Source: Caulobacterales bacterium | GTDB lineage: Bacteria > Pseudomonadota > Alphaproteobacteria > Caulobacterales > Caulobacteraceae | Direction: 5' to 3' | DNA length: 64,000 nucleotides | Assembly: GCA_947474395.1 (NCBI GenBank) | Contig: CANJID010000008.1 | Location: 1-64,000 of the forward strand | Shown here: positions 18,217-27,613 of the stretch, in pieces | Layout: each line of letters opens with the position of its first letter | Numbering within the stretch: position 1 is the first letter of the stretch | Program-made: the position numbers and the translations under genes | The notes under the pieces: model-generated | Told to the model about the DNA's origin: nothing | The model's input: only the letters and a program-made list of their open reading frames with translations | The model's database searches: none

Positions 18217-19767
18217 GTGACGCCCCGCATCGCCCTCGCCCCCGCACAACCGGCCGAAGCCGTCCCTGAGACGGCGCGTGCGCCGGACGTCGCGCCGGCC
18301 ATCGCGGCCGTTCCCTCGGTCGACCCCAAGGACCGCCGCGGACCATTCCGCCCTGAACGGCTGATCCCCGCCCGCTCGCGCCTGCACGGCGCGACGGTGG
18401 CGCGGCTGCTGCGGGCCGTGGACTTCACCCTCGCCGCCTTCCTCGGCCTTGGCGTCGCCAGCACAGCGGGGCCCCTGCCGCCCCAGCCCTTCGGCGAAGT
18501 CCTGCCCTTCGTCATCGCCGCCGGCGGCGTGATCTGGGCCCTGATCAGCACCGGCGCCTACAACTTCGCCCCGCGCGAAGGCTTCGCCGTCCACCTCTCC
18601 CGCACCTTCGCCTCCGGGGTCCTGGCCAGCGGCGCGGCGTCCGCCGCCGCGGTCCTGCTGGGGGCGCCGGAGGTGCTCGACCGCATCGCCCTCTGGACCG
18701 CCTGCGCCATCGTGGGCCACAGCATGATCCACCTGTGGGTCTGGACCGCCGTCCGCGGCTGGCGCGCTTCAGGGCGGCTCTCGCCCAATATCGTCGTCGT
18801 CGGCGCCACCGAGAACGCCGCGCGCCTGATCGCCAGCGTGCTGGAGAGCCGCGAGGCCAATGTCCTGGCCATCTTCGACGACCGGATCGGCCGGGTGCCC
18901 CCCGCCATCCACGGCGTCCCGGTGCTGGGCGACACCAAGCAGCTCCTGAACCACCCCCTGCTGCCCTACATCGATCGCATCATCATCACCGTCACCTCCT
19001 CGGCCCAGGTGCGGGTGCGCACCCTGATCGAGCGGCTGAAGGTGCTGCCCAACGCCGTCACCCTGTTCGTCGACGTCGAGGGCCAGGACACCCGCGACGC
19101 CACCCTGTCGCGCATGGCCGACATGCCCCTGACCCAGGTCTCGGGCGTGACCGAGGACGAGCGCCGCGCCGCCGGCAAGCGGGTGCAGGACCTGGTGTTC
19201 GGCTCCCTCGCCATGCTGGTCGCCCTGCCGATCATGGGGCTGGTCGCCGTCGCCATCCGCCTCGACAGCCCGGGGCCGGTGTTCTTCCGCCAGCGCCGCC
19301 ACGGCTTCAACAATGAGCCGATCAACGTCTGGAAGTTCCGCTCCATGCGCCACGAGGCGGCCGACGCCGTGGCCGCCCAGCAGGTGCGCGCCGGCGACGA
19401 CCGCGTGACCAAGGTCGGCCGCTTCATCCGCCGCACCAGCCTCGACGAGCTGCCGCAGCTGTTCAACGTGCTGGCCGGGGAGATGTCCCTGGTGGGCCCG
19501 CGCCCCCACGCCATCGGCATGAAGACCGCCGGTGAGGAGTCCGCCCGCCTGATCGCCGAGTACGCCTGGCGTCACCGCATGAAGCCGGGCATGAGCGGCT
19601 GGGCCCAGATCAACGGCTCGGTCGGGCCGATCGACACGCCGGAGGCCGTGCGCCGCCGCGTCACCCTCGACATCGAATACATCGAGCGCCAGTCGTTCTG
19701 GTTCGACCTGCGGATCATGGTCATGACGATCCCGGCCCTGATCGCCCAGCGCAACATCGTCCGGTAG
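18217..19767 (+). CDS. hfsE: Polyprenyl-phosphate sugar phosphotransferase HfsE
   Basis: Initiating transferase that moves a sugar-1-phosphate onto undecaprenyl phosphate on the inner membrane. About 516 aa: four hydrophobic segments in residues ~60-170, a Rossmann-like middle (N-I-V-V-V-G-A-T-E-N-A-A-R-L), another membrane helix (V-F-G-S-L-A-M-L-V-A-L-P) and the C-terminal bacterial sugar transferase domain with W-K-F-R-S-M, R-R-T-S-L-D-E-L-P-Q, V-G-P-R-P-H and G-M-S-G-W-A-Q-I-N-G. First gene of the holdfast operon, 4 bp before hfsF. The GTG at 18217 is my chosen start; the frame stays open to a TTG only 11 bp from the tRNA gene. Caulobacter has redundant paralogues (PssY/PssZ), but neighbours make HfsE the best name. 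Confidence 0.88.
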   Translation: MTPRIALAPAQPAEAVPETARAPDVAPAIAAVPSVDPKDRRGPFRPERLIPARSRLHGATVARLLRAVDFTLAAFLGLGVASTAGPLPPQPFGEVLPFVIAAGGVIWALISTGAYNFAPREGFAVHLSRTFASGVLASGAASAAAVLLGAPEVLDRIALWTACAIVGHSMIHLWVWTAVRGWRASGRLSPNIVVVGATENAARLIASVLESREANVLAIFDDRIGRVPPAIHGVPVLGDTKQLLNHPLLPYIDRIIITVTSSAQVRVRTLIERLKVLPNAVTLFVDVEGQDTRDATLSRMADMPLTQVSGVTEDERRAAGKRVQDLVFGSLAMLVALPIMGLVAVAIRLDSPGPVFFRQRRHGFNNEPINVWKFRSMRHEAADAVAAQQVRAGDDRVTKVGRFIRRTSLDELPQLFNVLAGEMSLVGPRPHAIGMKTAGEESARLIAEYAWRHRMKPGMSGWAQINGSVGPIDTPEAVRRRVTLDIEYIERQSFWFDLRIMVMTIPALIAQRNIVR

Positions 19768-19771
19768 CCGC

Positions 19772-21220
19772 GTGTTCTGGCGCGGTGTCCTGGCCTACCT
19801 TCCGGTCAACCTGGTGCAGGTCGGCGCCGGCTTCGGCGCCATCATCGTCTTCACGCGCCTGCTGTCCCCCGCCGACTACGGGGCCTACGCCCTGGCCATG
19901 GCGGTGGTCAGCCTGGTGCACACCTGCATGTTCACCTGGGTGGAGGCGGCGCTCGCCCGCTTCAACGCGGCCGAGACGACCCCGCAAGGCCAGGCGTCGC
20001 TCTACGCCAGCCTCTACGCCGTCTTCGCGCTCATGGCGGTGGCCCTGCCGATCGCGGCCGGACTGATCCTGTGGTTGGCGCCAGTCGCCGTCGGCCTGAA
20101 GATGGCCATCGGCGCGGGCCTGGTCTCGGCCATCGCGCGGAGCCTCCTCAAGCTGGCGCAGGAGCGGCGCCGGGCCTCCGGAGAGGTGAAAGCCTTCGCC
20201 ATCCTTGACGTCCTGGCCACCGGCGGCGGCTTCCTGCTCGGCGTCGTCTTCGCCCTGATCGGCTGGGGCGCCGCCGCCCCCCTGGCGGGCGCGGGCGCGG
20301 CGAGCGCCCTGCTGCTGGCCTGGACCCTGCCCGGAGAGCTCGGCCGGCTGCGGGGCGGCCAGGTGGAGCGCGCGCGGATCGCGAGTTACGCCGCCTACGG
20401 CCTGCCCCTGTCGCTCTCCCTTGTGATGAGCCTGGCGCTCGCCACGACCGACCGTTTCGTCCTCGCCGCCTTCATGGATCAGGCGACGGTGGGCGCCTAC
20501 CACGCCGGCTACAGCCTCTCGAACCGCACCCTGGACCAGATGTACTTCTGGCTCGGCATGGCCGGGCAGCCGGCTTGCATTGCCGCTCTGGAGCGCGGCG
20601 GCGAGGCGGCCCTGAAGCGGACCGCCCTCGACCAGGCGTCGCTGATGCTGCTGATCGCCCTGCCCTGCGCCGTTGGCCTGGCGCTCGTCTCCCAGCCCCT
20701 CGCGCAGCTCATGGTCGGCGAGGGCCTCGCGGACCGCGCCGCCCAGGTCACGCCCTGGATCGCCATCGGCGGCTTCTTCGCCGGCGTCACCACCTACTAT
20801 TTCAACACCGCCTACAGCCTGGCCCGCCGGACCCGGCGGCTGTTCGTGGTCATCGCCATCCCGGCCATCTCCAACATCGTCCTTTGCCTGGTGCTCGTGC
20901 CCCGCTACGGCCTCGACGGCGCCCTGTGGGCGACGGTGGCCAGCTACATCCTCGGCGCCGTGGTCTCCGTCCTGCTCGCCCGCGACGTGCTGGTCCTGCC
21001 CGTGCCCTGGGGGACCCTGGCGCGGACGGCGGGCGCGACCGCCCTGATGGCCCTGGCGGTTGCAGGCCTGCCCGCCCTCGGCGGCCTGCCGGAACTGCTG
21101 CTGAAAGCGTCGGTAGGCGCGGGCGTCTACGCCCTCGTGGTCCTGGCGCTCGACGCCGGCGGGGCGCGCTCCCTGATCCTGAAGGCCCTGCGCGGCCTGC
21201 AGCCCAGGCTCGCCGCATGA
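19772..21220 (+). CDS. hfsF: Holdfast oligosaccharide flippase HfsF (Wzx-like)
   Basis: Inner-membrane flippase of the polysaccharide_synt/MOP superfamily, 482 aa with about 12-14 hydrophobic segments. The N-terminus (W-R-G-V-L-A-Y-L-P-V-N-L-V-Q-V-G-A-G-F) and F-T-R-L-L-S-P-A-D-Y-G-A-Y-A-L are typical Wzx features. It should move the lipid-linked holdfast repeat unit to the periplasm. It starts at GTG 4 bp after hfsE and overlaps hfsG by 4 bp. Confidence 0.88.
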   Translation: MFWRGVLAYLPVNLVQVGAGFGAIIVFTRLLSPADYGAYALAMAVVSLVHTCMFTWVEAALARFNAAETTPQGQASLYASLYAVFALMAVALPIAAGLILWLAPVAVGLKMAIGAGLVSAIARSLLKLAQERRRASGEVKAFAILDVLATGGGFLLGVVFALIGWGAAAPLAGAGAASALLLAWTLPGELGRLRGGQVERARIASYAAYGLPLSLSLVMSLALATTDRFVLAAFMDQATVGAYHAGYSLSNRTLDQMYFWLGMAGQPACIAALERGGEAALKRTALDQASLMLLIALPCAVGLALVSQPLAQLMVGEGLADRAAQVTPWIAIGGFFAGVTTYYFNTAYSLARRTRRLFVVIAIPAISNIVLCLVLVPRYGLDGALWATVASYILGAVVSVLLARDVLVLPVPWGTLARTAGATALMALAVAGLPALGGLPELLLKASVGAGVYALVVLALDAGGARSLILKALRGLQPRLAA

Positions 21221-22152
21221 GCGACGTCGTCCTCACCGACAGCACCGCGTGGAAGGCCGCCAAGCCCACCCTGTCGGTGCTGACGCCCTTCTTCCGCTAC
21301 GATCCCATCCCCCTGCTCGAAGCCCTCGACGCCGAGGGCGCCGGCCTGGACGGCGCGGTCGAGCTCGTGTTGCTGGACGACGGCGGGGGCGACGACGCCC
21401 TGGCCGAGGCCGTGGCCGCGAAGGTAAAGGCCCTCGCCCTTCCCGTCCGCTTCGTCCGCCTCCTGCAGAACGAAGGGCGCGCCAAGGGTCGCAACCGGCT
21501 GGCCGGCGCGGCGCGGGCGCGGCACCTGCTCTTCCTCGACTGCGACATGCTCCCCGACGGATCGGGGTTCCTGGCCGCCTACCTCGAGGTCATCGCCCAA
21601 GGGGATCCGCCCGTAGTGTTCGGCGGCTTCGCGGCTCCCTCAGGTCCCGTCCCCGTCGACCAGGCCGTCGCCAAGGCCATGGCGCTCAGCGGCGACTGCG
21701 CGAGCGCGGCGGCGCGGCAGTTGCAGCCAGAGAAGTACGTCTTCACCTCGAACCTCCTGGTCCGCCGCGACGTGTTCGAGGCCGAGGCCTTCGACGAGAC
21801 CTTCGTCGGCTGGGGCTGGGAGGACGTGGAGTGGGGCATCCGCACGGGCAAGCGCTGGCCCCTGCTGCACATCGACAATGCTGCGATCCACCTCGGGCTA
21901 GACCCGCCGGGGACCCTGGCGCGGAAGTACGAGCAGTCGGTCGGCAACTTCGCCCGCGTGGCGGCCCGGCACCCCGAGATCGTCCGCGCCTTCCCCAGCT
22001 ACCGCGTCGCCCGCGCCCTGCGGCACGCGCCGCTCCGCCGCCTGTGGCGGCCGTGGCTGAAGCAGGCCGCCCTGACCGAGGGCGCTCCCATGGGCGCCCG
22101 CGTCATGGCCCTGAAGCTCTACCGCGCCGCCCTCTACTCGGACGTGGTGTGA
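21217..22152 (+). CDS. hfsG: Holdfast glycosyltransferase HfsG (GT2)
   Basis: Family 2 glycosyltransferase of 311 aa on the cytoplasmic side of the membrane. The GT-A fold is shown by P-T-L-S-V-L-T-P-F-F-R-Y, V-L-L-D-D-G-G-G-D-D, A-K-G-R-N-R-L-A and the nucleotide-metal motif F-L-D-C-D-M; the acceptor-site acidic motif is W-G-W-E-D-V-E-W-G. The start ATGA overlaps the hfsF stop. By position it matches Caulobacter hfsG, which extends the holdfast glycan (GlcNAc transfer is proposed). Confidence 0.85.
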   Translation: MSDVVLTDSTAWKAAKPTLSVLTPFFRYDPIPLLEALDAEGAGLDGAVELVLLDDGGGDDALAEAVAAKVKALALPVRFVRLLQNEGRAKGRNRLAGAARARHLLFLDCDMLPDGSGFLAAYLEVIAQGDPPVVFGGFAAPSGPVPVDQAVAKAMALSGDCASAAARQLQPEKYVFTSNLLVRRDVFEAEAFDETFVGWGWEDVEWGIRTGKRWPLLHIDNAAIHLGLDPPGTLARKYEQSVGNFARVAARHPEIVRAFPSYRVARALRHAPLRRLWRPWLKQAALTEGAPMGARVMALKLYRAALYSDVV

Positions 22153-23111
22153 TGGGCCAGATCGCGGTTCTCGTTCCGACCATGCGGCGCCCGGAAAGCC
22201 TGGCCCGCGCGCTCAGGTCTCTGTTCGCCCAGGATGCGCCCCAGCTGATCGCGCAGATCGTGGTGGTGGACAATTCGCCGGAGGCCTCGGCCCGCGCCAC
22301 GGTGGACGCCCTGCGCTCCGCCTCGCCCGTCGCGCTCACCTATGTCCATGAGCCGCGTCCCGGCGTCGCCACCGCCCGCAACGCCGGCCTCGCCGCCGCC
22401 GATGCGCCCCTGATCGCCTTCCTCGACGACGACGAGGAGGCCCCGCCGCAATGGCTGGCGCGCCTCGCCGCCGCCCACGCTTCTTACGGCGCCGCCGTCA
22501 CCTTCGGCCCGGTGCAGGGCGTGACGCCCCCGGGAACCGGATGGGCCGCGCCCTACCTCGACCGTTTCTTCTCCCGGCTCGGCCCCGAGACCTCGGGCCC
22601 GATCGAGGAGGCCTACGGCTGCGGCAACTCGATCATGACCAGGGCCCTGGCCCTGCCCGGCCCCGCCCCCTTCGACACCGGCTCGGACGAGACCGGCGGC
22701 GAGGACGACAAGCTGTTCGCGGCCTTACGCGCCCGCGGCGGCGGCTTCGCCTGGGCCGCCGACGCGCCTGTGCTGGAGCACGCCCCAGCCGACCGCGCCA
22801 AGCTCTCCTACGCCCTGTGGCGCGCCTTCGGTTACGGCCAGACGCCCTCGGAACTCTGCGCCCGGGATGGCGACTGGCCCGGCGTCGCCAAGTGGATGGC
22901 GGTGGGCGTCGCCCAGGTCCTCGTCTTTTCGCTGAAGGCGGCCATGCTGTGGGCCGCCAACAACCCCGCCCGCGCCGAAGCGGCGGATCGGGCCGCGCGG
23001 GGCCTCGGAAAGGTGTTCTGGTGGTCTCCGCAGCGCTTCTACGGCCAGGCGGCCGCCAAGCGGTCTAGCGCCAGCGCGGGTGTGGCGGCGGCTCCGGCGC
23101 CCATCGGCTGA
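22152..23111 (+). CDS. Second GT2 glycosyltransferase, in the hfsH position (HfsL-like?)
   Basis: Family 2 glycosyltransferase of 319 aa, sharing one base with the hfsG stop (TGATG). Motifs: I-A-V-L-V-P-T-M-R-R-P, V-V-V-D-N-S-P, G-V-A-T-A-R-N-A-G, the metal motif F-L-D-D-D-E-E and the acidic G-G-E-D-D-K-L-F. A hydrophobic C-terminal segment (V-G-V-A-Q-V-L-V-F-S-L-K-A-A-M-L-W) probably tethers it to the membrane. In Caulobacter crescentus the gene after hfsG is hfsH, a polysaccharide deacetylase; this protein has no deacetylase motifs. It could correspond to HfsL, encoded elsewhere in Caulobacter. Its last 47 bp overlap the convergent hfsC. Confidence 0.8.
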   Translation: MGQIAVLVPTMRRPESLARALRSLFAQDAPQLIAQIVVVDNSPEASARATVDALRSASPVALTYVHEPRPGVATARNAGLAAADAPLIAFLDDDEEAPPQWLARLAAAHASYGAAVTFGPVQGVTPPGTGWAAPYLDRFFSRLGPETSGPIEEAYGCGNSIMTRALALPGPAPFDTGSDETGGEDDKLFAALRARGGGFAWAADAPVLEHAPADRAKLSYALWRAFGYGQTPSELCARDGDWPGVAKWMAVGVAQVLVFSLKAAMLWAANNPARAEAADRAARGLGKVFWWSPQRFYGQAAAKRSSASAGVAAAPAPIG

Positions 23112-24426
23112 GGTCGCGGTTCGGGAACAACAGCCCGCCGCCCATGTCCTGCTCGACCTTCGGCGTGGCGTCGACCGCAACGCTGCCCGGCATGGCCAGG
23201 CGCGAGGCGATGATGGCGAACATCACCCAGATGAAGTCGTGGTAGATGAAGGCCACGCTCTCGGTCATGGTCGAGATCGTATAGATCACTAGGAAGGGCG
23301 CGGCGAACCAGCCGCCCGGATTGGTGTAGGCGGCCCAGAGGGCCTTCACCCATGTCTCCACGAACAGCAGCACCCAGACCGCCAGGCCGATGTAGCCGAC
23401 CCCCAGCCAGGTCTCCAGCCAGCTGTTGTGGGCGTGCTGGGCGGTGAACTTGGCGTCGTGGCTGATCCAGGCGTAGGGGCCCCATCCCGACCTGTCGCTC
23501 CAGACCACGCCATAGCCGAAGCCAGTCCAGGGACGGGTCTCGACCTGGCGGATGATCCCCGCCCAGATCGCCGTCCGGCCCGTCAGGGTGGCGTCCTTGC
23601 CCAGGAGGGCGAAGAAGACGTCCGAGGCGAAGACGATGAAGCAGGCCAGGGCCAGCGCCCCCACCATGGCCAGGAAGGTCGCCGCCACCGCCATGGCCGG
23701 GCCGCGCTTGACCAGGGCCACGAAGGTGATGGCCCCAAGGCCCAGGATCAGGGCCACCAGGGAGGTCTTGGAGGTGGAGGCCAAAACCAGGAGGAAGGCC
23801 AGGCACGCGAAGCCGGCCCACCGCAGCCGATGGCGCGGATTGAGCACAGCGGCCGAGACGAAGATGGCGAAGCCCTGGGCCATGTAGCCGCCCAGCGCGT
23901 TCTTGTCGGCCCACAGTCCCCGCCAGGCCCCGGGGAAGATCTCGTGCATCACCCCAAAGCCGGGGACCGCCACGGCGACGAACAGGGAGCCCACCGCAAG
24001 GACGCCGAAGGCCGTCGCCATCACCTCCATCAGCTCGGGCCAGTCGTAGCGGGAGGCGATCACCACCCCGCCCAGGGTGGTGAAGATGACGGCCACGGCC
24101 CGCCGACTGGTCATGCCGGGGTCGATCGACCAGCTGACGGATGCGACCACCACCCCCATCAGCACCCACAGCAGGGGCGTCCGGACCATGGCCGACAGCA
24201 CCCGCTCGGGCCGCATGGCCACCAGGGCCAGGGCGCAGAGATAGGCGGGGAAATAGAGCACTCGGATAAAGCCGGGCTCGGATTTGCCGTCCGAGCCGAG
24301 GGCGGTCATCCAGCTCTGGCTGAAGGTCAGGACGATGAAAACGGCGAGGCCGAAGGCGATCTTCTCGGCCGGAGCGCGAACCTCCGTCCGCCCTCCCCCT
24401 TGCGGGATGGCGGTGGCGACACTCAC
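23065..24426 (-). CDS. hfsC: Holdfast polysaccharide polymerase HfsC (Wzy/O-antigen ligase-like)
   Basis: Inner-membrane protein of 453 aa with about 10-11 hydrophobic segments and the Wzy_C/O-antigen-ligase signature: G-R-T-A-I-W-A-G-I, T-G-F-G-Y-G-V-V-W, a periplasmic loop with H-A-H-N-S-W-L-E-T-W-L-G-V-G-Y. It should join repeat units in the periplasm. It overlaps hfsB by 4 bp and is last in the hfsA-B-C operon, antiparallel to hfsEFG. The tail is Pro-rich (P-E-P-P-P-H-P-R-W-R) and its coding sequence overlaps the convergent GT2 gene. Confidence 0.87.
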   Translation of the reverse strand: MSVATAIPQGGGRTEVRAPAEKIAFGLAVFIVLTFSQSWMTALGSDGKSEPGFIRVLYFPAYLCALALVAMRPERVLSAMVRTPLLWVLMGVVVASVSWSIDPGMTSRRAVAVIFTTLGGVVIASRYDWPELMEVMATAFGVLAVGSLFVAVAVPGFGVMHEIFPGAWRGLWADKNALGGYMAQGFAIFVSAAVLNPRHRLRWAGFACLAFLLVLASTSKTSLVALILGLGAITFVALVKRGPAMAVAATFLAMVGALALACFIVFASDVFFALLGKDATLTGRTAIWAGIIRQVETRPWTGFGYGVVWSDRSGWGPYAWISHDAKFTAQHAHNSWLETWLGVGYIGLAVWVLLFVETWVKALWAAYTNPGGWFAAPFLVIYTISTMTESVAFIYHDFIWVMFAIIASRLAMPGSVAVDATPKVEQDMGGGLLFPNRDLSRWAPEPPPHPRWR

Positions 24427-25214
24427 GGCAACATCGCCCGGATGGCCGACGGCGGCTCGGCGGGGGCGCGGTTGAACACCATGCCGGCGAACTCCCCGCC
24501 CGCCTGCTCGATGGCGTTCTTGAGGGCGGCGGGGGCGCCGGTGTCGCGGCCGTCGGCCGAGACCACCAGCACATTGGCGTCGGCGAAGGGCGCCACGGCC
24601 AGCGCTGCGCGGCTGCGCGAGGCGGCGGGGGCGTCGATCACCACATAGTCGGCGAACTTGCGAAGGGCGTTCCAGTAGGCGGGGTCGGCGGTGATCTGCA
24701 CCGACTGGCCGATCCGCAAGGCCTCGCGGCGAAAGCGCGTCACCCAGAAGCGCCGCCCGCCCACCGCATAGGCCAGCAGATAGGGCGCGTTCTGGAAGGC
24801 CAGGCCGTCCGGGCGGCGGGCCGGCGGCTCAACGCTGAAGAAGGCGGTGCCGTCGGGGCTGGCGTGGCTGGCGGTGCCGATGAAGCCGTAGCGCTCCGGG
24901 TCGGCGGCGATGGCCGCGTACTGCTCCCCGCTCATGACGTCGAGCTCGACCAGCCAGACGCCGCGGCGCGAGCGCTCGGACGCCAGGCGCGCAAACTCCC
25001 TCGCCACGGTGGAGACACCCTCCCCCGCGCTCGCGGCGACAAATTGCACCACGCGCCCTTCGGCCCCCGGTGAGGGGCCGAGCGCATGGAGCAGTTCCGC
25101 CATCTCGGACGCCAGATCCACCATTGGCTCGAATCGCTCAGGAGCGCTGGCGCCCACTGTAGGCGACGAAACGAGCCCCCCGCCATGTGCGAAGCCGTCA
25201 AGGGGCTTAGCCAT
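24423..25214 (-). CDS. hfsB: HfsB, CpsD/Wzc-like protein with degenerate Walker A
   Basis: Protein of 263 aa with the fold of the cytoplasmic domain of bacterial tyrosine-kinase copolymerases. The P-loop equivalent is A-S-A-G-E-G-V-S-T (residues 61-69): the lysine of G-E-G-K-S-T is valine. Walker B-like Y-V-V-I-D-A-P-A-A and V-F-N-R remain. There is no tyrosine-rich C-terminus. It probably works with HfsA in export as a structural or ligand-sensing partner rather than an active kinase. Start overlaps hfsA by 8 bp; stop overlaps hfsC by 4 bp. Confidence 0.85.
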   Translation of the reverse strand: MAKPLDGFAHGGGLVSSPTVGASAPERFEPMVDLASEMAELLHALGPSPGAEGRVVQFVAASAGEGVSTVAREFARLASERSRRGVWLVELDVMSGEQYAAIAADPERYGFIGTASHASPDGTAFFSVEPPARRPDGLAFQNAPYLLAYAVGGRRFWVTRFRREALRIGQSVQITADPAYWNALRKFADYVVIDAPAASRSRAALAVAPFADANVLVVSADGRDTGAPAALKNAIEQAGGEFAGMVFNRAPAEPPSAIRAMLP

Positions 25215-26658
25215 TGGACTTCAACGGAGCGCTGACCAGAACCGGAAGTTCCAGGGTGCGCTCGGCATAGGCGGCGGTGGGGAAGCCGCGGGACAGGAAA
25301 GCGCGCAGCAGGCCGGCGCAGATGGCCGCGAAACCGGCGAACAGCAGGGCCAGGACCAGCACCGGCTTCCTCAGGCTGGTGCCCTTCACCGGGGCGTAGG
25401 CGCGCTCGACCACGCGGATGTTGTCGTCGCCCTTCTGGGCCAGGGACTGGGCGGCGCCGGCCTCCTGCTCGCGGGCGATGAAGGTCTTGACGTTGGCGGA
25501 GAGGGCGTCGCGTTGGCGGGCGAGGTCCTGGTACTGCGGCTCCAGCTCGGCGATCTTCTGACGGCGAGCGGTGACCTGCTCCAGGGAGGTCGCGATGGCC
25601 CCCTGGCGTTCGCGCAAGGACGCCGCCTGGGCCTCGACCTGGTTCCGGTCGGTCTGCAGGGCTTGGTAGACCGGATTGACCCCGATCCGACGCGCGCTCG
25701 TGCCCTCCGGCATCAGCGGCGCCTGCAGCGCGGCGATCTTCTGGTCGATGTCGCGGATGTTGGGGGCGTCGGGCCTGTAGCGGGACAACAAGTCCTGGCG
25801 CTCGATCCGCAGCTTGGTCAGGGCGCTCGACTGGGTCTGGTCGACGTCGCGGAAGAGGCCGATCTCCTTCTCGGAGCCGGCCATGGTCTTGGCGGTGGCC
25901 GTCAGCCGGCCTTGCGCCTCGGACAGCTGGGCCTGGACGCTGTAGCGCTCGGCCATGAGCGAGGCGTAGAGCTGGTTCAACGACGCCTTCTCGGTGTCGA
26001 AGTCGCCGATCATGTTGTCGGTCAGGAACTTCTGGTAGGCGGCGTCGGTCATGTTCAGCTGGTTCTGGAAGCTGAGCCGCTGGTCGCGCAGGGCCTGGAC
26101 GTCGTGGTTCACCAGCACCGTCTTGCGGAAGATCAGGTACTCGTCGATCAAGGTGTTGAGGATCTCCGCCGCCATGTGGCCGTCCTCGGCGGTGTAGGTC
26201 AGTCGCACCACGGCGGTGTCCGGGGCGCTCTCGATCTTGAGCGCCGTCTCCATCGACTTGATGGCGAGGCCCTCCATGGTCTTCTTCTCGTTGGGAGAAG
26301 CCTTGGCGTATTCGGCGGCGGCCGTGGGGAACATGCGGGCGAAGCCGATGCGGCGGATCACCCGCTCCTTGAGGGCCGCGCTGGAGAGAATCTCGGTTTC
26401 CGACTGGATGACCTGGTCGCCGGTGGGGGTCGCCCCCCTCGCCGCGTCGCCGACGCGGGGGTTGTAGACGTATTCCTGGCTGAGCTGGATCAGCAGGCTG
26501 GAGTGGGCGGCGTAGCTCTTCTTCAGGAGCAGGGCCCCGAATATCCCGATCGCCAGGACCACCAGGAACACCACCACCATGAAGTAGCGCTGGCGCCAGA
26601 CCAGGGCGACGAAGTCCTCGAGGTCGTAGCGCGGACGCGCGGCGACGCGCGCGTTCAT
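25207..26658 (-). CDS. hfsA: HfsA, Wzz/GumC-type chain-length and export protein
   Basis: Polysaccharide copolymerase of about 483 aa. A Wzz domain starts at Y-D-L-E-D-F-V-A-L-V-W-R-Q-R with the first membrane helix (V-V-V-F-L-V-V-L-A-I-G-I-F), followed by a long periplasmic alpha-helical/coiled region (residues ~180-440) and a second helix near the C-terminus (P-V-L-V-L-A-L-L-F-A-G-F-A). It links the polymerase to the outer-membrane channel HfsD. I prefer ATG 26658, directly before the conserved N-terminus; in-frame ATGs at 26703 and 26760 are possible but run into the promoter shared with hfsD. Confidence 0.87.
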   Translation of the reverse strand: MNARVAARPRYDLEDFVALVWRQRYFMVVVFLVVLAIGIFGALLLKKSYAAHSSLLIQLSQEYVYNPRVGDAARGATPTGDQVIQSETEILSSAALKERVIRRIGFARMFPTAAAEYAKASPNEKKTMEGLAIKSMETALKIESAPDTAVVRLTYTAEDGHMAAEILNTLIDEYLIFRKTVLVNHDVQALRDQRLSFQNQLNMTDAAYQKFLTDNMIGDFDTEKASLNQLYASLMAERYSVQAQLSEAQGRLTATAKTMAGSEKEIGLFRDVDQTQSSALTKLRIERQDLLSRYRPDAPNIRDIDQKIAALQAPLMPEGTSARRIGVNPVYQALQTDRNQVEAQAASLRERQGAIATSLEQVTARRQKIAELEPQYQDLARQRDALSANVKTFIAREQEAGAAQSLAQKGDDNIRVVERAYAPVKGTSLRKPVLVLALLFAGFAAICAGLLRAFLSRGFPTAAYAERTLELPVLVSAPLKSNG

Positions 26659-26761
26659 GCGCAAGGCCCCCGGCCCGTCATTCGGCCATGCCGAGGCGCC
26701 CATACTCACAGCCAGACTCGGATCGGATTCGCTTCCACGTCCGACCCTGGGCCTCGGCACG

Positions 26762-26776
26762 TTAACTGTTCGTTAC
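26762..26776. promoter_or_regulatory. CtrA-like site in the hfsA/hfsD divergent promoter
   Basis: TTAA, seven bases, TTAC (26762-26776), one mismatch from the CtrA consensus TTAA-N7-TTAA. It is followed by two more TTAACC-like half sites at 26780 and 26786. The cluster sits 43-57 bp before the hfsD start and about 105 bp before the preferred hfsA start. The match is by eye; TTAA is rare in such GC-rich DNA. Confidence 0.45.
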
Positions 26777-26818
26777 CCATTAACCTTAACCCTTCAGATA
26801 GATTTGTAGGGCTGGGAA

Positions 26819-27613
26819 ATGACCATGAGGCGTCTATCCGTTGCGGGCATTGCGGTTGCGGCGAGCTTGGCCGCGGGCTGCGAAAGCGCCCCTCGTGTCA
26901 CCATGCCGCGCCTGACCATGCCCACCGTTTCCATGCCGAACCCGCCGTCGCTTTTCGGCCTGCCGCCGCAGCAGACCGGGTTCAGCGGCATCCCCTTCGC
27001 CACCTGGCAGGACAACGAGCCCGCCTACCGCTTCTATCCGGGCGACGTGGTGGACGTGACCTTCCCGTCGGCGCCGGAGAACAACCGCTCGGTGACGGTC
27101 GCCCCGGACGGCCGCATCGCCCTGCCCTTCATCGCGCCGATCATGGTGGCCGACCGCACCGTGCCGGACGTGCAGTACTTCCTGGCCCAGGCCTACCGGC
27201 CGGTGCTCAATGAGCCTCGCGTCGAGGTCTCCGTGAAGCAGGCTTCCCCGATCAAGGTGTTCGTGGGCGGCGAGGTGGACAAGCCGGGGGTCTACGACAT
27301 GGCCGGCGACATCAGCGCCCTGCAGGCCGTGATCATGGCCGGATGGGTCAAGCCCACCGCCAAGACCAACATGGCCGTCCTGATCCGCCGCGGCTTCGGC
27401 GAGCCGGCGATGATGCGGACCGTGGACCTGCGGCGGGCGACCTTCCAGCCGGGCACGACGGATTCGGTGGCCATGCGACGAGGCGACATCCTGATCGTGC
27501 CCCGCAGCGGCATCGCCAACTGGGACCTCTTCGTGAAGCAGTACATCACCGACGGCATCCCGATCCAGTTCGGCCGCTCCCTCGACGGGACGCAGTTCTT
27601 CACCACGAAGTAG
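26819..27613 (+). CDS. hfsD: Outer-membrane polysaccharide export lipoprotein HfsD (Wza/OPX)
   Basis: Lipoprotein of 264 aa with signal peptide and lipobox S-L-A-A-G-C (lipidated Cys21). The Poly_export domain follows (Y-R-F-Y-P-G-D-V-V-D-V-T, V-A-P-D-G-R-I-A-L-P-F-I) and then an SLBB-type domain (I-K-V-F-V-G-G-E-V-D-K-P-G-V-Y). It should form the outer-membrane exit for holdfast polysaccharide. It is monocistronic here, divergent from hfsA, as in Caulobacter. Start at ATG 26819 (T-M-R follows; an internal ATG at 26825 is possible). Confidence 0.9.
   Translation: MTMRRLSVAGIAVAASLAAGCESAPRVTMPRLTMPTVSMPNPPSLFGLPPQQTGFSGIPFATWQDNEPAYRFYPGDVVDVTFPSAPENNRSVTVAPDGRIALPFIAPIMVADRTVPDVQYFLAQAYRPVLNEPRVEVSVKQASPIKVFVGGEVDKPGVYDMAGDISALQAVIMAGWVKPTAKTNMAVLIRRGFGEPAMMRTVDLRRATFQPGTTDSVAMRRGDILIVPRSGIANWDLFVKQYITDGIPIQFGRSLDGTQFFTTK

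Follow-up and report, generated by a model that had tools for sequence, protein, structure and literature searches.

The window, i.e. the whole stretch of 64,000 nucleotides analyzed here, belongs to a Caulobacterales draft genome (G000 below) and carries a locus for holdfast synthesis in which the gene of the deacetylase HfsH is missing. The locus begins on the forward strand with hfsE (18217..19767), which encodes the initiating sugar-phosphate transferase (Pfam Bac_transf; 655 bits on NF050817, cut-off 750) and reads from a GTG start according to an earlier note on this DNA. It is followed on the same strand by the flippase gene hfsF (19772..21220; NF050818, 636 bits, cut-off 700) and by hfsG (21223..22152; NF050819, 453 bits, cut-off 500), encoding a GT2 glycosyltransferase. 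The fourth forward gene (22152..23111) encodes another GT2 glycosyltransferase of 319 amino acids with the motif FLDDDE, identified below as HfsL; at its 3' end, the gene shares 47 bp with the convergently oriented hfsC. The reverse strand holds hfsC (23065..24426; Wzy-type polymerase, Pfam Wzy_C), hfsB (24423..25214; autokinase-like by its position and weak autokinase-type NCBIfam matches, with no Pfam match), and hfsA (25207..26760; Wzz-type protein, Pfam Wzz at 26.5 bits against a cut-off of 25.5), while the export protein is encoded by the forward gene hfsD (26819..27613; Pfam Poly_export). The products of hfsE, hfsF, and hfsG fall short of the NCBIfam equivalog cut-offs, reaching 87-91% of them.

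The same eight slots are found in the genome G161 (locus L070), judged from its context to be a Caulobacter, where they run E-F-G-H, C-B-A, D on matching strands, and the fourth slot is occupied by HfsH (480 bits on the HfsH model, NF050820). As the earlier note had recognized from the open reading frames, the window shares seven of the eight genes, with their order and strands, with the C. crescentus-type hfsEFGH-CBA-D locus, and the remaining gene is of the GT2 type; a Pfam comparison returned GT2 families only (PF00535, 78 bits) and no polysaccharide deacetylase domain. The window thus differs from the C. crescentus-type locus in lacking hfsH and in the position of hfsL, which is part of the locus here and lies about 149 kb off in G161. 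Since the start of the GT2 gene overlaps the stop of hfsG by one base (TGATG, 22150..22154, forward strand), no remnant of hfsH lies between them, in the slot that hfsH occupies in relatives such as G225 and G121.

HfsL as the neighbor of hfsG

The fourth gene was placed in a tree with HfsG and HfsL, as the earlier note had proposed. The relatives came from a sample of 249 genomes drawn from the order, 145 of which have a strong HfsG match (hfsG genomes hereafter), and the tree was built from 68 HfsL rows (42 from the window's family plus every second other row, out of 93 candidates) and 23 subsampled HfsG rows. HfsL and HfsG were split with support 100, and the window gene fell into the HfsL group, pairing with that of G225 (support 92) inside a 23-row clade of its own family (support 99). 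Because it groups with HfsL apart from HfsG, we call it HfsL, a known holdfast glycosyltransferase in a common position: its relatives adjoin hfsG in 104 of the 145 hfsG genomes, both with and without hfsH between the two genes, and are present anywhere in 142. Other GT2 matches in the window's genome are weak (E about 4e-4), so that a second, closer HfsL was not found there, and a profile search against solved structures returned general GT2 enzymes, e.g. chondroitin synthase.

The HfsL relative of Caulobacter G161, to which the window protein is 50% identical, starts at 1338231, about 149 kb from hfsG (1487656), and the gene overlaps the end of an upstream PF13480 acetyltransferase gene (both within L142:5997-8152). 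This copy was taken as HfsL from its distance to the hfs genes and its acetyltransferase neighbor. According to the excerpted text of PMC6372794, C. crescentus hfsL is CCNA_02360 and is needed for holdfast synthesis, and in that of PMC8449245 the hfsK paralog CC_2277 sits outside the main locus; the G161 pair probably corresponds to CCNA_02360 and CC_2277 as neighbors. The window gene and CCNA_02360 would then be members of one GT2 group, linked to hfsG here and unlinked in Caulobacter.

The order hfsG-hfsL without hfsH is also usual in Brevundimonas. Among the best 80 loci of named genomes nearest to the window's HfsL, a set that leans towards Brevundimonas and, overlapping in part with the 249-genome sample, is not independent of it, 55 have hfsG beside hfsL without hfsH, 15 have hfsH between them, one has hfsH but with hfsG cut off, and nine have hfsL with hfsG not shown. 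Within these 80, hfsH is absent from 43 of the 48 Brevundimonas-titled loci that show hfsG. Loci of the hfsEFGL type (B. diminuta, B. bacteroides, B. lenta, and others) share the window's order without hfsH, and an HfsH-like deacetylase is encoded elsewhere.

A deacetylase encoded outside the locus

The draft genome (103 contigs, 99.65% complete) contains one PF01522 match, a deacetylase of 246 amino acids encoded on contig C26 (G000:C26:30456-31193), and canonical hfsH was not found in this assembly. The sole NCBIfam match of the C26 protein is HfsH, at 166.7 bits, or 42% of the cut-off of 400, compared with 326-480 bits for the 12 in-locus HfsH proteins scored out of 22 in the window's family. 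These 22 are 33-39% identical to the C26 protein. In a deacetylase tree of 120 rows, 35 rows including the window's genome (clade I) stood apart from the other 85 with support 99; we label the latter "clade II" for convenience, although they may not form a single clade. Tree placement covered deacetylase matches of E 1e-27 or stronger. A more careful tree of 79 rows, with named genomes added, recovered clade I (100/100) and, as a separate clade, the in-locus HfsH of the family (100/100). Within the family, clade I proteins (20) score 148-196 bits on the HfsH model.

The C26 protein belongs, like HfsH, to the Polysacc_deac_1 family and keeps its SFDD and HxxxH motifs (NF050820; PMC8449245, in excerpt); it differs from HfsH in its separate clade, its place outside the hfs locus, and its pairing with an FkbH-like gene. 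All 33 aligned clade I rows are invariant at the positions of SFDD, HxxxH, the arginine, and the His-Asp (D, D, H, H, R, H, and D), the broken gene of G102 and the truncated one of G217 having been left out of the alignment, and the aspartate named D43 in the excerpt of PMC8449245 probably lies, judging by position, in SFDD. Comparison with solved structures gave one weak match, to a peptidoglycan deacetylase (E 5e-4). In G236 (L012/L082) the clade I gene lies directly behind hfsG, the sole such case seen, and HfsL is on another contig. As a separate observation, the clade I gene of G102 (L056), a genome with HfsG, is frameshifted, and its FkbH-like gene is also split.

Immediately upstream of the C26 deacetylase, and overlapping its start by one base, lies a gene for an FkbH-like protein of 614 amino acids, in which the FkbH domain TIGR01686, with a HAD-type domain, scores 234.8 bits, above the cut-off of 146.65. 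FkbH proteins have an acyltransferase-like half, and among solved structures this protein matches 3slr (E 7e-10). An FkbH-like search of 80 genomes gave matches in 19: 14 were long, 13 of them beside clade I, the fourteenth being in G086, a genome without strong HfsG, and the other five match the shared domain only; in G072 and G102 the FkbH-like gene is split. With four named relatives, FkbH-clade I pairs are found in 17 genomes, always on the same strand, and in 16 of them the matched stretches are less than 160 bp apart. Of the 35 clade I genomes, the remaining 22, 18 of which belong to the Brevundimonas group, lack an FkbH-like gene next to the deacetylase; the window's lineage differs in this from the Brevundimonas loci examined, none of which has one. 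In Brevundimonas, the genes conserved around clade I do not extend beyond that genus group and resemble housekeeping genes, as assessed by eye from sequence starts alone.

In the careful tree the window deacetylase groups with those of L284, L282, L283, and L285 and of G008, a member of another family (99/93), whereas the nearest relative of the window's HfsG and HfsL is G225, which keeps hfsH in the slot. As the relatives of the deacetylase differ from those of HfsG and HfsL, the comparison suggests that the FkbH-deacetylase pair was acquired by transfer, the exact order within its tree group being uncertain. Also on C26 (L014:7613-11043), the FkbH-like gene, the deacetylase gene, and a DUF6065 gene stand in a row; for the last, comparison with the other 65 loci gave no match at E 1e-10.

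Complementary distribution and its interpretation

Among the 145 hfsG genomes, 35 have clade I and hfsH was not found in them (in 34 the clade I gene is off the locus, and in G236 it is beside hfsG), while 109 have an hfsH-type enzyme and clade I was not found in them. The hfsH-type gene is at the locus in 107 genomes (103 tabulated, plus G029, G098, and G046, plus G203, where the contig ends between hfsG and the deacetylase) and solely off the locus in two (G056 and G150); 76 of the 109 were placed by the tree, and 33 were assigned from position alone. In the window's family (51 genomes), clade I occurs in all 20 hfsG genomes that lack in-locus hfsH, in none of the 22 that have it, and in none of the nine without strong HfsG, two of which give only matches of E about 1e-3. 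All 35 clade I genomes have HfsG, and their next best match to the HfsH model scores at most 53 bits. A search with this model of 50 of the 80 named genomes, i.e. the 16 that have hfsH and 34 of the 55 that lack it in the locus, recovered the in-locus gene in 16 of 16 (205-379 bits) and a deacetylase elsewhere, at 119-193 bits, in 33 of 34, one of these genes being incomplete at the end of a contig. Sixteen regions from these 33 were examined, and 15 of their genes belong to clade I by tree, the partial one matching by BLAST.

We consider it likely that the window holds a holdfast cluster with HfsL as its fourth forward gene, that canonical hfsH was lost in this lineage from the slot between hfsG and hfsL, and that deacetylation is most likely performed in trans by the clade I enzyme encoded on C26. 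With the roles modeled for C. crescentus, HfsE would start an undecaprenyl-linked repeat, HfsG would extend it, and HfsL would add one sugar; HfsF would flip the unit, HfsC polymerize it, and HfsA, HfsB, and HfsD export the polymer. The C26 protein, the sole polysaccharide deacetylase that the draft genome was found to encode, would act on it in trans, and in several lineages of Caulobacterales clade I would take the place of HfsH. An action of clade I on the holdfast is suggested by its distribution, by the conservation of its motif residues, and by the arrangement in G236. The named genomes L220 (G249) and L231 (G251, Caulobacter sp. S45), which carry both canonical hfsH and an FkbH-clade I pair (the second deacetylase gene at 150-157 bits, clade I by tree, with an FkbH-like neighbor), look like an intermediate state, and clade I was probably gained, perhaps by transfer, before hfsH was lost. 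On the sequence comparisons, the finding of note would be a repeated exchange of hfsH for a distinct deacetylase clade in Caulobacterales, and the GT2 gene that had first attracted attention would be ordinary.

Several observations weigh against this interpretation. In-locus HfsH proteins of other families score 167-248 bits, overlapping with clade I, so that the score gap is confined to the window's family, and two in-locus HfsH proteins of named genomes score 294-295 bits. Depending on the root, the careful tree may nest clade I among hfsH-type enzymes, beside the in-locus genes of families f2 and f3 (80/69), and clade I may therefore be a transferred HfsH rather than an old paralog. The score overlap and the possible nesting slightly lowered our confidence. 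The distribution is clumped on the HfsG tree, with at least five switches forced and seven on the best tree, and a pair test gave p = 0.0625, a weak result since each trait was coded as the complement of the other. G236 is the only genome in which clade I was seen next to hfs genes. In genomes without strong HfsG there are weaker deacetylase matches (e.g. G087, E 2e-24); G041, which also lacks HfsL, is the one hfsG genome with neither an hfsH-type nor a clade I gene, and the metagenome-assembled genome G278 (L217), without in-locus hfsH, has only 21-bit matches. L220 and L231 indicate that clade I can coexist with HfsH and may have a role of its own. Finally, the window's draft genome gave no hit to PF03808 (WecG/TagA), which we take to be the family of HfsJ, although such a gene is present in 69 of the 71 hfsG genomes tested (G126 being the other exception) and in 17 of 17 further named genomes. 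The HfsJ-family gene is either lost or hidden in an assembly gap, and a gap is possible in a draft of this kind; with no such gene found, the pathway may not run as in Caulobacter.

An undeacetylated holdfast, with hfsH simply lost and the C26 deacetylase and its FkbH-like partner serving another polysaccharide, would agree with the distance of the pair from the hfs genes, with a score far below the HfsH equivalog cut-off, and with the two named genomes that have both enzymes. It fits poorly with the presence of HfsG and the absence of detected hfsH in 35 of 35 clade I genomes with no strong second HfsH-model match, with the contrast among the three groups of genomes inside the family, and with the clade I gene behind hfsG in G236. 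The earlier note had raised such an adhesin as an option; given that the genome retains, away from the locus, a deacetylase with its motifs intact, and that the occurrence of this enzyme follows the absence of hfsH, we regard it as unlikely. The same note had also suggested that hfsH might be kept elsewhere, and its proposed genome-wide search did yield a deacetylase on C26, yet one of another clade and not canonical hfsH. That the C26 gene is the family's own hfsH at a new site would explain why HfsH is its only NCBIfam match and why it retains 33-39% identity to the in-locus proteins. This relocation is nevertheless very improbable, as in both deacetylase trees the C26 gene falls outside the group of in-locus HfsH of the family, to which the in-locus copies from Brevundimonas relatives also belong, the scores are bimodal within the family, and two named genomes have both genes. 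We therefore rejected a move of the family's own gene; an HfsH transferred from another family is compatible with the careful tree. The idea with which the earlier note began, that the GT2 protein is a new enzyme replacing hfsH and altering the sugar make-up of the adhesin, drew on the slot that hfsH fills in Caulobacter. It is hardly tenable: the GT2 tree, in which the protein groups with HfsL, argues against a novel replacement, which we rejected, and HfsL adjoins hfsG whether or not hfsH lies between.

Beyond the preferred reading of deacetylation in trans, one may imagine that the FkbH-like and clade I genes spread as a two-gene cassette. It would at first be present together with HfsH, the state of L220 and L231, and would later displace it because its function goes beyond deacetylation: the deacetylase would expose a free amine on the polymer of the holdfast, to which the FkbH-like enzyme would attach a different acyl group, to give a chemically different bioadhesive. 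We regard this extension as quite doubtful.

Implications and related observations

In C. crescentus and Hirschia baltica, the holdfast depends on HfsH for its adhesion and cohesion (PMC8449245, in excerpt). Judging from the complementary distribution, other members of the order, among them type strains such as B. diminuta ATCC 11568, appear to rely on another, so far unstudied deacetylase whose gene lies off the locus. For B. diminuta ATCC 11568 and B. bacteroides DSM 4726, which have no hfsH in the locus, the clade I genes are in L294 and L295. The hfs genes were surveyed across Caulobacterales by orthology to C. crescentus (PMC12700997, in excerpt). Where hfs genes are scored by best hit to those of C. 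crescentus, clade I may be taken for hfsH, or deacetylation for lost. In the excerpted text of PMC3798453, the genes for holdfast synthesis in B. abyssalis include one for a polysaccharide deacetylase. In the open-licence PMC literature, no paper combined holdfast with FkbH, FkbH with polysaccharide deacetylase, Brevundimonas with hfsH, or holdfast with Phenylobacterium and hfsH; two papers combined hfsH, holdfast, and hfsL. Clade I is a directly testable candidate gene, with the FkbH-like gene as its candidate partner in the window's lineage.

When eight genomes were compared around their HfsJ-family gene, no neighbor was common to them apart from that gene itself (E 1e-15). HfsH-type deacetylases were also seen in three genomes of genus g31 without a strong HfsG match (L046, L048, and L057 in G197, G137, and G122). 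Two hfsH-type copies are present in six genomes, all of family f2, and the off-locus copies of this family are second copies in these six and the sole hfsH-type copy in G056 and G150. These off-locus hfsH-type deacetylases (L047 and L049-L055; family f2, genera g14 and g36) adjoin a conserved gene family. Its one scanned member, in L055, encodes an acetyltransferase with PF13480, as would be expected for HfsK, which makes this another pairing of a deacetylase with an acyltransferase.

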